From: Dehalococcoidia bacterium
GTDB taxonomy: Bacteria > Chloroflexota > Dehalococcoidia > Bin125
Assembly (NCBI GenBank): GCA_022825855.1
Contig: JAJDWB010000013.1
Location: 186,001 to 250,000, forward strand
Direction: 5' to 3'
Length of the DNA: 64,000 nt
The position numbers were made by a program, and so were the translations under genes. The notes under the pieces are model-generated. The model saw only the letters and a program-made list of their open reading frames with translations, did no database searches and had not been told where the DNA came from. Below are positions 17,122 through 21,645 of the stretch, one piece after another (positions within the stretch are counted from its first letter, which is position 1; each line of letters starts with the position of its first letter).

Positions 17122-18120
17122 GTGGTTGATCTTGAGGCGTTGGAGGCGGAGGCGCGGGCGTCGCTCGCCGAGGCGGGCGACGAGGCCTCGCTGGACGCCT
17201 GGCGCGTGGTGTGGCTGGGCCGCCGGGGACGGCTGACTTCGGTGCTGCGCGGCGTGCGCGATCTGCCGGTCGAGGAGCGCCCCCGAGTGGGCGCGGGAGC
17301 GAATCGGCTCAAGGTCTCCTTGGAAGAAGCCGTGGCCGCGCACCGATCGCAGTTGCTGGCCTCGGCGGCCGATACCGACGCAATCGATGTGACGCTGCCC
17401 GGTCGCGCGCCGCCGCTCGGTTCGCTGCATCCGATCACGTTGACCAGGCGCATGCTTGAACGCACCTTCCGCGACATGGGGTTCGATGTCGTCGAGGGTC
17501 CCGATGTCGAGCTGGAGGAGTACAACTTCGATCGGCTGCGCATTCCCGCCGGACATCCCGCCCGCGATATGTGGGATACGATCTGGGTCGCCGATGACGG
17601 CGATAGTGGACCGCGACAGTTGTTGCGGACTCACACGTCGCCGATGCAGATCCGCTATCTCGAGCGACGCAGCCCGCCGATCCGGGTGATCGTGCCCGGC
17701 ACCTGTTACCGCTACGAAGCGACCGACGCCACCCACGAATGGATGCTGACCCAGATCGAGGGCCTGGTCATCGACCGGAACCTCTCGATGGCGCATCTGA
17801 AAGGGACCCTGGAAGCGTTCGTGCGCCGCATGTTCGGCGCCGACATTGAGACGCGCTTCCGCTGCGACTACTTCCCCTTCGTCGAACCGGGCGCCGAACT
17901 CGGCGTCCGCTGGCAGGGCGACTGGCTCGAGATCCTGGGCTGCGGCATGGTCCATCCCGAGATCATCGAAGACGCCGGGTTGGATCCTGAGCTATACACC
18001 GGGTTCGCCTTCGGCATGGGCGTCGAGCGTGTCGCCATGCTCCGCTATGGCGTCCGTGACATCCGCCACTTCTATCGCAACGACGTACGTTTCCTGCGTC
18101 AGTTCGAAGGGCGCCGATGA
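17122..18120 (+). CDS. pheS: Phenylalanyl-tRNA synthetase alpha subunit
   Basis: PheS is the catalytic subunit of the alpha2beta2 enzyme that charges tRNA-Phe. The 332-residue chain has a short N-terminal coiled coil (about 1-85) for tRNA binding, then the class II core. Motif 1 lies in LERTFRDMGFDVVEGPDVE, motif 2 in GTCYRYEATDATHEWML, and motif 3 in GFAFGMGVERVAMLRYG. The GTG at 17122 follows GGAAA by six bases. The stop overlaps pheT by 4 bp. Confidence 0.97.
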   Translation: MVDLEALEAEARASLAEAGDEASLDAWRVVWLGRRGRLTSVLRGVRDLPVEERPRVGAGANRLKVSLEEAVAAHRSQLLASAADTDAIDVTLPGRAPPLGSLHPITLTRRMLERTFRDMGFDVVEGPDVELEEYNFDRLRIPAGHPARDMWDTIWVADDGDSGPRQLLRTHTSPMQIRYLERRSPPIRVIVPGTCYRYEATDATHEWMLTQIEGLVIDRNLSMAHLKGTLEAFVRRMFGADIETRFRCDYFPFVEPGAELGVRWQGDWLEILGCGMVHPEIIEDAGLDPELYTGFAFGMGVERVAMLRYGVRDIRHFYRNDVRFLRQFEGRR

Positions 18121-20531
18121 TGGACGTCCCCCTTAAGTGGCTCGCCCGCTACGTCGATTGGGATCTCTCGGTTGAAGAGCTCGCTCATCGGCTGAGCATG
18201 GCCGGCGCAGAGGTCGAGTCGATCAGGAGCAGCGGCGGCGAGTGGGATCAGGTGGTCGTGGGACGCGTCGCCGCCGTCGATCCGCATCCCAACGCCGACC
18301 GCCTGCGTCTGGCTACCGTCGAGTTCGGAGCCGACGAGCCGCTGCAGGTGGTCTGCGGCGCGCCCAACCTGGAGGCTGGTCAGACGATCGCCTTCGCCCA
18401 GGTGGGAGCCCAACTGATCGATCCGGGGACCCGCGAGCCGCGCAAACTGCGCCGCGGCAAGATTCGCGGCGTGACCTCAATGGGCATGGTCTGTTCCGAG
18501 CGCGAGCTCGGACTCTCGGACGAGCACGAGGGCATCCTCGTCTTGGACACCGATGCGCCGCTCGGCACGCCGCTCGCCGACGTGCTGGGTGATGTCGTGC
18601 TCGACATCAAGCCAACCCCCAACCGTCCCGACCACTTCTCCATCCTCGGCATCGCCCGCGAGGTTGCCGCCTTGACCGGCGGATCGGTGATCGAGCCGGC
18701 GTCGGTCTACCCCGAGTCGGATATCCCGATTGACGCGCGATCCAGCGTCACGATCGAAGACGCCGAGGGTTGTCCTCGATACACGGCCATCGTGATTGAT
18801 GGAGTGCGCATCGGTCCGTCGCCCGAGTGGATGCAGGAAGCGTTGCTGTCGGCGGGCATGCGACCGATCAACAACATCGTCGACGTAACCAACTACGTCA
18901 TGCTCGAGTGGGGTCAACCGCTGCACGCCTTCGACTTCGACTTGCTGCGAGAGCAGCGGATCGTCGTCAGACGGGCCCGCGCCGGCGAACAACTGGAGCT
19001 GCTGGACGGCTCACAACTCGAGCTCCAGACCGACGATCTCGTGATTGCCGACGGCGAGCGGGCGGTCGCCCTGGCCGGCATCATGGGCGGCGCCGACTCC
19101 GAGATCTCCGAGGCCACCACGACGGTGCTGCTGGAGACGGCCAACTTCCAGGAGGCGACGATCCGCCGCAGCCGAGCCATGCATACCGAGACGGGGACGG
19201 AGGCAAGCAGACGTTTCGAGAAGTCGCTCAACCCTGAACTGGCCGATCTGGCCGCTCGTCGAGCCGCGGCGCTAATCATCGAAACCGCCGGCGGCCAGGC
19301 GCTGGCCGGCTTGGTCGACGCGTATCCGGGCAAGACGCATCCACCGCAGGTCGTCGTCACCCAGCGCCGCATTGAGCAAATTCTCTCGCTGCTGCCCAGC
19401 GTGGAGGAAGTGCGCGGCACCCTGTCGGCGCTGGGCATCTCCAACCGTTGGATCCCGCCCGACCGGTTCGCGGTGAGCTGCCCGCCCTGGCGCTCGGACA
19501 TCAAGGTCGCCGACGATGTCATCGAAGAGATCGGACGGATCCTCGGCTACGACAATCTGCCTTCCGCTCCCTTGCCCGGAGCCGTGCCCGATCCCGATAT
19601 CGACCCACAGCGAGATCTGGGAGAACGGATTCGCGACACCCTCAGCGGTCTGGGACTGCGAGAGATCATCACCTACGTGACCGTCGCTGCCGAGGAATCC
19701 GCGGCGACTGCTTCGTCGGGCGACGACAACCGCATTGCCGTGCGACTGCAGAATCCGATGAACGCGGAGCGGGATCGGATGCGGCCGAGTTTGAGGCCTT
19801 GGGGACTGCGTTCGTTCGCCCAGAATCAGCGCGAGGCCAGAGGCGGCCTGGGTCTGTTCGAGGTGGGCAAGACGTTTGCCCCCAATCCCGGTCGCCAGCC
19901 GACCGAGACGCGAACTCTGCTGGCGTTGCTGGGCGGCGAGTCCGCTGCGACCGTGCACGGGGAAGCAGCGCGCGCGATCGACTTCTTCGACGCCAAGGGT
20001 CTGCTCGAGCAGCTCTGCGCCGGCTTGGGTGTGGAGTTCGCGCTAAGCGCCGACGCCGGCGACGCGTTCCTGGCCGGCGGGCAGTCCGCGACAGTGAACG
20101 TGCGCGGGCAGGAAGTCGGCGTGATCGGCAAAGTGCGGCCCTCGGTCGCGTCGACATTCGACGTGCAGGGCGACGTATTCGCGCTGGAGCTCTCGATGGC
20201 GGCGCTGGCCCCGGTGCTGGGCGAGTCCGAACCGGTCCCCTCGCCGTCGGTCTACCCGTCTGCAGTCGAGGACTTGGCCCTGGTGGTTGACGCGTCCTGC
20301 CCGGCAGGCGATCTTGCCGCTGCGATTTCCGGTAACGGGCTGGTCGAGAGGGTCGAGCTGTTTGACATCTATAGCGGCGACCAGATTCCCAACGGACAGA
20401 AATCCCTCGCGTTCCGCGTGTACTACCGCTCGCCCGACCGGACGCTAACCGATCGCGACGTCGAGAAAGCCCGTCGAGGCATCGTGCGGCGGCTGGAATC
20501 GCAGTTCCAGGCGTCGCTGCGCGACTCCTGA
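18117..20531 (+). CDS. pheT: Phenylalanyl-tRNA synthetase beta subunit
   Basis: The 804-residue beta subunit shows the full bacterial domain series: an N-terminal tRNA-binding (EMAP-II-like) domain (about 38-150, with VVGRVAAVDPHPNADRLRL), the B3/B4 editing domain, the B5 domain, a degenerate synthetase core, and a C-terminal ferredoxin-like anticodon-binding domain (about 710-804). TPNRPDHFSILGIAREVAAL and NNIVDVTNYVMLEWGQPLHAFD are typical. It is coupled to pheS by a 4-bp overlap. After the stop comes a 143-bp gap with a CIRCE-like element. Confidence 0.97.
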   Translation: MMDVPLKWLARYVDWDLSVEELAHRLSMAGAEVESIRSSGGEWDQVVVGRVAAVDPHPNADRLRLATVEFGADEPLQVVCGAPNLEAGQTIAFAQVGAQLIDPGTREPRKLRRGKIRGVTSMGMVCSERELGLSDEHEGILVLDTDAPLGTPLADVLGDVVLDIKPTPNRPDHFSILGIAREVAALTGGSVIEPASVYPESDIPIDARSSVTIEDAEGCPRYTAIVIDGVRIGPSPEWMQEALLSAGMRPINNIVDVTNYVMLEWGQPLHAFDFDLLREQRIVVRRARAGEQLELLDGSQLELQTDDLVIADGERAVALAGIMGGADSEISEATTTVLLETANFQEATIRRSRAMHTETGTEASRRFEKSLNPELADLAARRAAALIIETAGGQALAGLVDAYPGKTHPPQVVVTQRRIEQILSLLPSVEEVRGTLSALGISNRWIPPDRFAVSCPPWRSDIKVADDVIEEIGRILGYDNLPSAPLPGAVPDPDIDPQRDLGERIRDTLSGLGLREIITYVTVAAEESAATASSGDDNRIAVRLQNPMNAERDRMRPSLRPWGLRSFAQNQREARGGLGLFEVGKTFAPNPGRQPTETRTLLALLGGESAATVHGEAARAIDFFDAKGLLEQLCAGLGVEFALSADAGDAFLAGGQSATVNVRGQEVGVIGKVRPSVASTFDVQGDVFALELSMAALAPVLGESEPVPSPSVYPSAVEDLALVVDASCPAGDLAAAISGNGLVERVELFDIYSGDQIPNGQKSLAFRVYYRSPDRTLTDRDVEKARRGIVRRLESQFQASLRDS

Positions 20532-20607
20532 TCGGGTCATTTCCCCTGCCAACCGACGAGTTCTGTGTCCCGTGTTGCACATTCGTGTCCGCGTCGGCGT
20601 GCGGAAC

Positions 20608-20634
20608 TTGGCACTCTCATGTGGAGAGTGCCAG
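20608..20634 (+). promoter_or_regulatory. CIRCE-like HrcA operator
   Basis: The sequence TTGGCACTC-N9-GAGTGCCAG is seen directly. The HrcA operator consensus is TTAGCACTC-N9-GAGTGCTAA. The left arm differs at one base and the right arm at two. The A-to-G and T-to-C changes at the inner position compensate each other, so an 8-bp perfect inverted repeat (TGGCACTC / GAGTGCCA) is kept with the canonical 9-bp spacer. It ends 40 bp before the start of the following gene, a normal place for a repressor site at the transcription start. Confidence 0.7.
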
Positions 20635-20674
20635 AATTGCATTCAACAGCAGATCCTGCGGAAAGGCACCGATC

Positions 20675-21190
20675 ATGACCTACGTGCATCCGAACCTGTC
20701 CGAGAACTACGGCAGTGCCTTCGACCTCGGAGATCTGACCCACCGGCTCAACGATGCGGCCGACCACGTCGAACTCGCTTCGGTGCTCTACGACGCGACC
20801 GCCCTGCCTCCGATCGAGCTGCGCCGCGTGATGCGCGCCATGGCCCGGCGCGAAGGCGGCGCCTCGGTCGAAACAGCGCACGAGCTGGCCACGACGAGAC
20901 TGCGCGCCTTCCTGCGGCTCGACGTTGAAGATGCGCGAGTTGCCGCTCGCGCCTTCGCCGACGCGCACATCGACCTGCCGGATCCCTGGCGCGAGCGCAA
21001 TCGCGAGATCGAGTTTTCCGCGATCAAGAACGCGCTGCATCTGCGTGAGTTCGTCGCCCTCACCGAGATCGTGCCCTGGCTGCGCGACCATGAAGGAGCG
21101 CAGTGGATGCTCGATCGAGTGCCAGAGGGCGACACCTTCGAGATCGTGGCCGATTCCAGCGGGACGCCGACGCTGGCGGCAAGTTCATAA
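20675..21190 (+). CDS. Protein of unknown function, candidate HrcA-regulated gene
   Basis: I do not recognise this 171-residue protein. It is acidic and largely helical, with a repeated Ala/Arg/Glu-rich pattern and an Ala/Thr/Ser-rich C-terminus. There is no signal peptide, membrane segment or Cys motif. The ATG at 20675 is preceded by GGAAAGG (20660-20666) at good spacing, better than an in-frame ATG at 20585 that would include the operator. The CIRCE-like element lies in its leader and a strong terminator follows, so it forms a single-gene unit. The operator suggests a heat or protein-folding stress role; that is inference. It is not GroES, GrpE, DnaJ or a small heat shock protein by sequence. 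Confidence 0.8.
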   Translation: MTYVHPNLSENYGSAFDLGDLTHRLNDAADHVELASVLYDATALPPIELRRVMRAMARREGGASVETAHELATTRLRAFLRLDVEDARVAARAFADAHIDLPDPWRERNREIEFSAIKNALHLREFVALTEIVPWLRDHEGAQWMLDRVPEGDTFEIVADSSGTPTLAASS

Positions 21191-21219
21191 CGCCCGCATA
21201 GCGCGTATCCAGACCGCAC

Positions 21220-21260
21220 AACGCCCGGCTCGCCACGCTGGCGACGCCGGGCGTTCTTGT
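21220..21260 (+). terminator. Intrinsic terminator
   Basis: A near-perfect hairpin pairs AACGCCCGGC (21220-21229) and TCGCCA (21230-21235) with TGGCGA and GCCGGGCGTT (ending 21255), with one bulged C. It is followed by a T-rich tail, TTCTTGTCT. It ends the unit of the unknown gene and separates it from convergent rplT. Confidence 0.85.
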
Positions 21261-21294
21261 CTGCGCAAATTACCCGCAGGAAGAATGGTCGGGG

Positions 21295-21645
21295 TCAGGC
21301 CGCCTGAGCGCGTTCAACCACGGAGCTGAAGCCGGCCGGGTCGTGGACCGCCATCTCGGCGAGCACCTTGCGGTCAATCTCGATGTCCGCCTGCTTGAGG
21401 TCGTGAATCAGGCGGCTGTAGGTCGTGCCGTTCAGGCGCGCCGCTGCGTTGATTCGCTGGATCCAGATCCGGCGCATGTCGCCCTTGCGCTCGCGTCGAT
21501 GCGCGTAGGCATAGGACAGAGCGTGCAGCCGCGACTCGGAGGCTCGCCGGTACAGGCGATTGCGTACGCCGTGGTGGCCTTTGGTCTGCTTGAGGACTTT
21601 CTTGTGGCGGCGTCGCTCGCGAGGGCCGCCCTTTACTCGTGGCAT
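21295..21645 (-). CDS. rplT: 50S ribosomal protein L20
   Basis: L20 binds 23S rRNA early in 50S assembly. The 116-residue protein is full length and carries PRVKGG, KKVLKQTKGHHGVRNRLYRRA, RRERKGDMRRIWIQRINAA and a normal C-terminal domain. It is last in the classic infC-rpmI-rplT operon. In several bacteria L20 represses its own operon by binding the leader. Confidence 0.98.
   Translation of the reverse strand: MPRVKGGPRERRRHKKVLKQTKGHHGVRNRLYRRASESRLHALSYAYAHRRERKGDMRRIWIQRINAAARLNGTTYSRLIHDLKQADIEIDRKVLAEMAVHDPAGFSSVVERAQAA

Follow-up and report, generated by a model that had tools for sequence, protein, structure and literature searches.

Between pheT (18117..20531, plus strand) and the convergent rplT (21295..21645, minus strand), both identified by Pfam and both outside the transcription unit, lies a single gene. 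It was found in a window of 64,000 nucleotides, the whole stretch of Dehalococcoidia DNA that was analysed, and is predicted to encode an all-helical heat-shock protein of 171 residues that belongs to the HrcA regulon. The reading frame occupies 20675..21190 on the plus strand, from an ATG at 20675 to a stop codon at 21188–21190. This start is backed by 15 orthologues that align from the ATG and by a conserved GGA-rich Shine-Dalgarno sequence. A GTG at 20585, which would give a protein of 201 residues, was rejected on the same evidence and because its frame would cross the operator. The operator, a candidate CIRCE element at 20608..20634, sits 76 nt past the pheT stop codon and 40 nt ahead of the ATG, where it overlaps the sole promoter-like site of the region. 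Beyond the gene, a GC-rich hairpin read in the sequence (AACGCCCGGC...GCCGGGCGTT, 21220..21255) is a likely bidirectional terminator between the convergent genes, and orthologous loci show a similar hairpin in the corresponding position. An initial annotation of this DNA had called it a strong terminator; the long GC-rich hairpin stands, but the T-run is weak and an automatic terminator scan scored only the inner five pairs. That annotation had also described a 171-residue protein lacking a known chaperone motif as the only downstream product, which is confirmed, as no known domain was found.

HrcA binds TTAGCACTC-N9-GAGTGCTAA and represses transcription (PMC7464140). On the plus strand at 20608..20634 the window contains the exact dyad TTGGCACTC-TCATGTGGA-GAGTGCCAG, which keeps the fixed 9-base spacer and matches the core at 12 of 12 positions. 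The predicted HrcA site, TTGGCACTC-N9-GAGTGCCAG, has pairing arms TGGCACTC/GAGTGCCA of 8 bp and differs from the canonical element by one compensated change, A-T to G-C, exactly the spacing and dyad first described. Within the genus, the groEL2 and groES operators show the same A-to-G (or T-to-C) variants. The stem reaches 10 bp through TC/GA pairs inside the spacer, an extension that is not kept in the aligned upstream regions of relatives. Shuffled windows are expected to hold 0.04 matches each at three or fewer mismatches, and perfect 12-base cores are expected from base composition at 0.007 per 64 kb and 0.33 per 2.82-Mb genome, versus 4 observed in the genome. The reversed pattern, used as a control, is absent from the same genome, and across 294 genomes of the class it occurs 0–1 times on each strand of a genome. 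A chance dyad was rejected on the genome counts, these controls, and the phylogenetic footprint described below.

HrcA regulons are mostly described as sets of chaperones. The genome encodes HrcA (PF01628, E 7.8e-33, 114.5 bits versus a cut-off of 22.2), and a pattern search of its 2.8 Mb returns exactly four perfect GCACTC-N9-GAGTGC sites. They precede hrcA-grpE-dnaK-dnaJ, groES-groEL, a second groEL (groEL2), and the 171-residue gene. Throughout the genus, every classified CIRCE site belongs to one of these four target classes (hrcA, groES, groEL2, and this gene), so the gene recurs as a target no less consistently than the chaperone operons do.

Conservation of the dyad follows the gene closely within the genus. 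Protein searches recover one orthologue in each of 15 genus genomes, the present one included, and one in a genome of a neighbouring genus. All 15 genus members have a perfect core CIRCE about 40–50 nt before the ATG, and two of them (G007 and G008) have a tandem pair 43 bp apart. When 13 of the 15 are aligned on the dyad, the arms are nearly invariant at 1.94 bits per column, followed by the spacer at 0.75 and the upstream sequence at 0.48. Counting against conservation, both dyads of the neighbouring genus (G017) are degenerate, TTGGCACTC-N9-GAGTGATGA and TTGGCACTC-N9-GAGTGATAAGAT, with degraded right arms in both copies (GAGTGATGA, GAGTGATAA). Searches of three further genera of the family (G015, G016, and G018/G019) did not recover the gene, which suggests that the wider heat-shock response can do without it. 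In G016, pheT and rplT are ~48 bp apart with no gene between them, while the absence in G015 and G019 is uncertain because those assemblies are 79–84% complete; the genomes compared are incomplete assemblies throughout. The named public relatives are metagenome-assembled Dehalococcoidia/Chloroflexi, several of them presumably sponge-derived, going by their isolate names.

Homologues in other families of the class were found by a protein profile alone, a search that is blind to DNA signals, and the CIRCE-linked ones, at about 30% identity, come from two further families (f53 and f2). The f53 homologue (G354) is preceded by a perfect TTAGCACTC-N9-GAGTGCTAG; there is no pheT in the 5.4 kb upstream, and the contig ends just past the gene. 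Among the f2 genomes, G569 has a perfect CIRCE before its homologue, and G460 has the compensated form TTAGCAGTC-N9-GACTGCTAA, in which one base is changed in both arms and the symmetry is kept. A third f2 genome (G545, locus L195 on contig C4) has a perfect core CIRCE ahead of a homologue whose coding sequence is broken into two frames, either a pseudogene or an assembly error. Neither pheT nor rplT was seen in the DNA read around the homologues of G354, G569, and G460, which links the gene to CIRCE rather than to its neighbourhood.

A sister clade of uncharacterised Dehalococcoidia proteins shares the homologous helical core and is found by the same profile, but it differs in its C-terminal tail and in its upstream DNA. 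Its 11 members (L133, L193, L194, and L196–L203, among them a second copy in G354, G542, G606, and others) end in a Trp-rich C-terminus (..PWWKFW). CIRCE is absent from all 11 in up to 500 nt of upstream sequence, where the best candidates have 2–5 mismatches in the 12-base core and none is a symmetric CIRCE form. The tree parts the CIRCE-linked from the CIRCE-less clade on a branch with 100/99 support, although long branches call for caution on the deeper order. The clade without the operator offers a ready comparison.

The promoter of the gene appears to be built from the operator itself. In a promoter scan, the left end of the CIRCE arm forms a −35 hexamer, TTGGCA (20608..20613, plus strand), and the right arm is overlapped by an extended −10 hexamer, CAGAAT, preceded by TG (20632..20637, plus strand), which the alignment also points to. 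Together they match 9 of 12 consensus positions with an 18-nt spacer (20608–20637) and constitute the only promoter-like site in 20500–21400, where shuffles give 0.1. The −10 is mostly CARAAT, and its final T is invariant in the 13 aligned genomes. Because the arms supply the −35 and overlap the extended −10, the promoter is probably embedded in the operator, and HrcA bound at 20608–20634 would cover the core promoter. The other three operons of the genome differ in having CIRCE just after the −10. Across the genus, hrcA, groES, and groEL2 share a conserved −10 (TACGAT; CACAAT at groEL2) located 7–8 nt before CIRCE, so bound HrcA would sit at the start point. No conserved −10 of this kind is found ahead of CIRCE in the aligned upstream regions of the 171-residue gene. 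An overlap of operator and promoter is known from the groEL2 promoter of M. xanthus, where CIRCE overlaps the −35 region (PMC9040617), but that target is a chaperonin and the operator described here spans −35 to −10. In G017, the altered right arm turns the −10 into TAAGAT, which would fit a double role of the arm. The embedded promoter goes beyond the initial annotation, as does the placement of the protein in a broader family.

The protein has a mass of 19.1 kDa and a pI of 5.0, with one Lys, 17 Arg, and no Cys. It has no match in Pfam (E up to 1), NCBIfam (E up to 10), PHROGs, or PADLOC, including the known chaperone and co-chaperone families of Pfam and NCBIfam, and a sequence search of the PDB returned nothing usable. 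AlphaFold predicts a confident all-helical superhelix over residues 15–130 followed by a disordered tail, with 106 residues at pLDDT ≥90. For a HEAT, MIF4G, or MA3-like alpha superhelix, comparison of the model with the PDB gives a best Z of 8.1 and an rmsd of 2.9–3.1 over 106–109 residues, a level that the yardstick of the comparison tool assigns to the background among helical proteins. These generic matches include the cap-binding complex, SOSS1, Pdcd4 MA3, and CTD-interacting domains, and Foldseek returned no match under E 0.001. Assignment of function by fold was rejected, since the matches to two AlphaFold models were all generic helical repeats with Z at most 8.1. With no recognised domain, a role in protein quality control is proposed through guilt by association.

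The probability that the gene belongs to the HrcA/CIRCE heat-shock regulon, with the dyad at 20608–20634 as a functional operator, is put at about 0.88 from the sequence comparisons. As the pairing of CIRCE and gene is kept in at least three bacterial families, this is very probably a new heat-shock gene. The initial annotation had raised membership of the regulon as a possibility and had named three findings that would speak against it: a genome lacking hrcA, chaperone operators clearly different from this dyad, and a dyad not conserved before orthologues. None of them occurred. The hrcA gene is present, the genome scan it proposed places the same dyad at the hrcA, groES, and groEL2 operators, and the dyad is kept in 15/15 genus genomes and before distant homologues of other families.

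A coincidental likeness to CIRCE, with the dyad acting as a pheT terminator or a 5′-UTR hairpin, draws on the 10-bp stem possible in this genome and on the closeness to the pheT stop codon. It is nonetheless very improbable, and a pheT-specific or RNA hairpin signal was rejected: no T-run follows the dyad, spacer bases vary freely and the extra pairs are not kept, the sequence of the arms and not just their pairing is invariant and the same as at the chaperone operators, and the dyad accompanies the gene in genomes without the pheT context. If instead HrcA binds and controls the gene while its product is unrelated to protein stress, loss of the site would be expected, yet the pairing persists at ~30% protein identity across families and differing neighbourhoods, and no part of the upstream region is more constrained than the operator arms. 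Such a passenger is improbable, even though the gene is missing from related genera and the protein has no chaperone domain.

Less easily set aside, but still unlikely, is a protein that acts back on the regulon by binding HrcA or GroEL and is not a client co-chaperone. Sharing the operator of hrcA and groEL would suit such a regulator, and M. xanthus provides a precedent in MXAN_4468, a response regulator that tunes HrcA binding at CIRCE (PMC9040617). The 171-residue protein, however, has no DNA-binding or receiver domain, and in the genome its gene lies apart from hrcA and groEL.

By analogy with Bacillus and other systems, heat-shock regulation of the gene would proceed as follows. In the unstressed cell, HrcA on the operator would keep the gene off, and RNA polymerase is proposed to be shut out because the arms double as the −35 and as part of the extended −10. 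When GroEL is titrated by misfolded proteins, or HrcA is inactivated by heat, the repressor would leave the operator, and the gene would be expressed along with hrcA-grpE-dnaK-dnaJ, groES-groEL, and groEL2. For B. subtilis, modulation of the CIRCE regulon by GroE has been described (Mogk et al. 1997, cited in PMC9040617). HrcA binding, repression, and GroEL feedback at this gene are all inferred from those systems. The 19-kDa superhelix would then act in the heat-stress response, perhaps as a modulator of the chaperonin/HrcA loop or, as the favoured but tentative role at somewhat under even odds, as a protein-binding adaptor or co-chaperone. A more speculative proposal is a dedicated heat-shock protein of a new class: a helical adaptor working with or feeding back on the GroEL/HrcA circuit, which would have been recruited to CIRCE in these Dehalococcoidia, unlike the sister clade, and whose promoter elements are the operator arms.

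The dyad, its spacing, the HrcA of the genome, and the shared operators of hrcA, groES-groEL, and groEL2 all resemble the HrcA/CIRCE regulon of the Bacillus subtilis type, from which the locus departs in that its target is an uncharacterised protein. Non-chaperone targets have precedents. A Campylobacter hrcA mutant shows a rise in Cj0168c (PMC7464140), and in Chlamydiota the gene wcw_0502/ctl0271 has a conserved CIRCE with HrcA occupancy by ChIP-qPCR (PMC12038028). The latter is likewise a lineage-specific non-chaperone protein, but its published description is that of a secreted effector containing a cystine knot (PMC12038028), whereas the 171-residue protein has no cysteine and is predicted to be helical; no evidence of kinship with Wcw_0502 was found. 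Judged by titles, abstracts, and term counts, the papers searched gave no description of the protein family or of Dehalococcoidia CIRCE targets. The regulon type is known; the target would be an addition to it, from an uncharacterised protein family. Genes of Dehalococcoidia are hard to study by mutation. That one protein family retains CIRCE in several bacterial families and gene neighbourhoods points strongly to a component of bacterial protein quality control that has gone unrecognised, and the 171-residue gene is a testable candidate for it.

Class-wide CIRCE targets were drawn from a subset of sites, and counts are among the matches listed. At least five genomes have a perfect CIRCE before a small zinc-ribbon gene (Pfam Zn_ribbon_8, FmdB type; L089, L091, L171, and L173 in f33, and L217 in f53), which would make it the second non-chaperone gene under HrcA in the class. 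In the f33 copies the spacer contains TTGAC, so that here too the −35 may lie within the operator. In the present genome, the CIRCE-groEL2 unit is directly preceded by two genes, one for an FmdB-like zinc ribbon and a short one that is signal-peptidase-like (contig C17, L003), and the zinc-ribbon match recurs ~0.7–0.9 kb upstream of groEL2 across the genus. At least two f2 genomes have a perfect CIRCE before a gene of ~300 residues of the PAC2 family (proteasome-assembly-chaperone-like, PF09754; L208 in G561 and L209 in G630), which may tie the heat-shock response to proteolysis. A CIRCE dyad with TTGAC in its spacer precedes a gene for a GPR1/FUN34/YaaH-family membrane protein (L165, contig C3 of G051), and a more classical target, an Hsp20 gene, follows CIRCE in G466 (L075).
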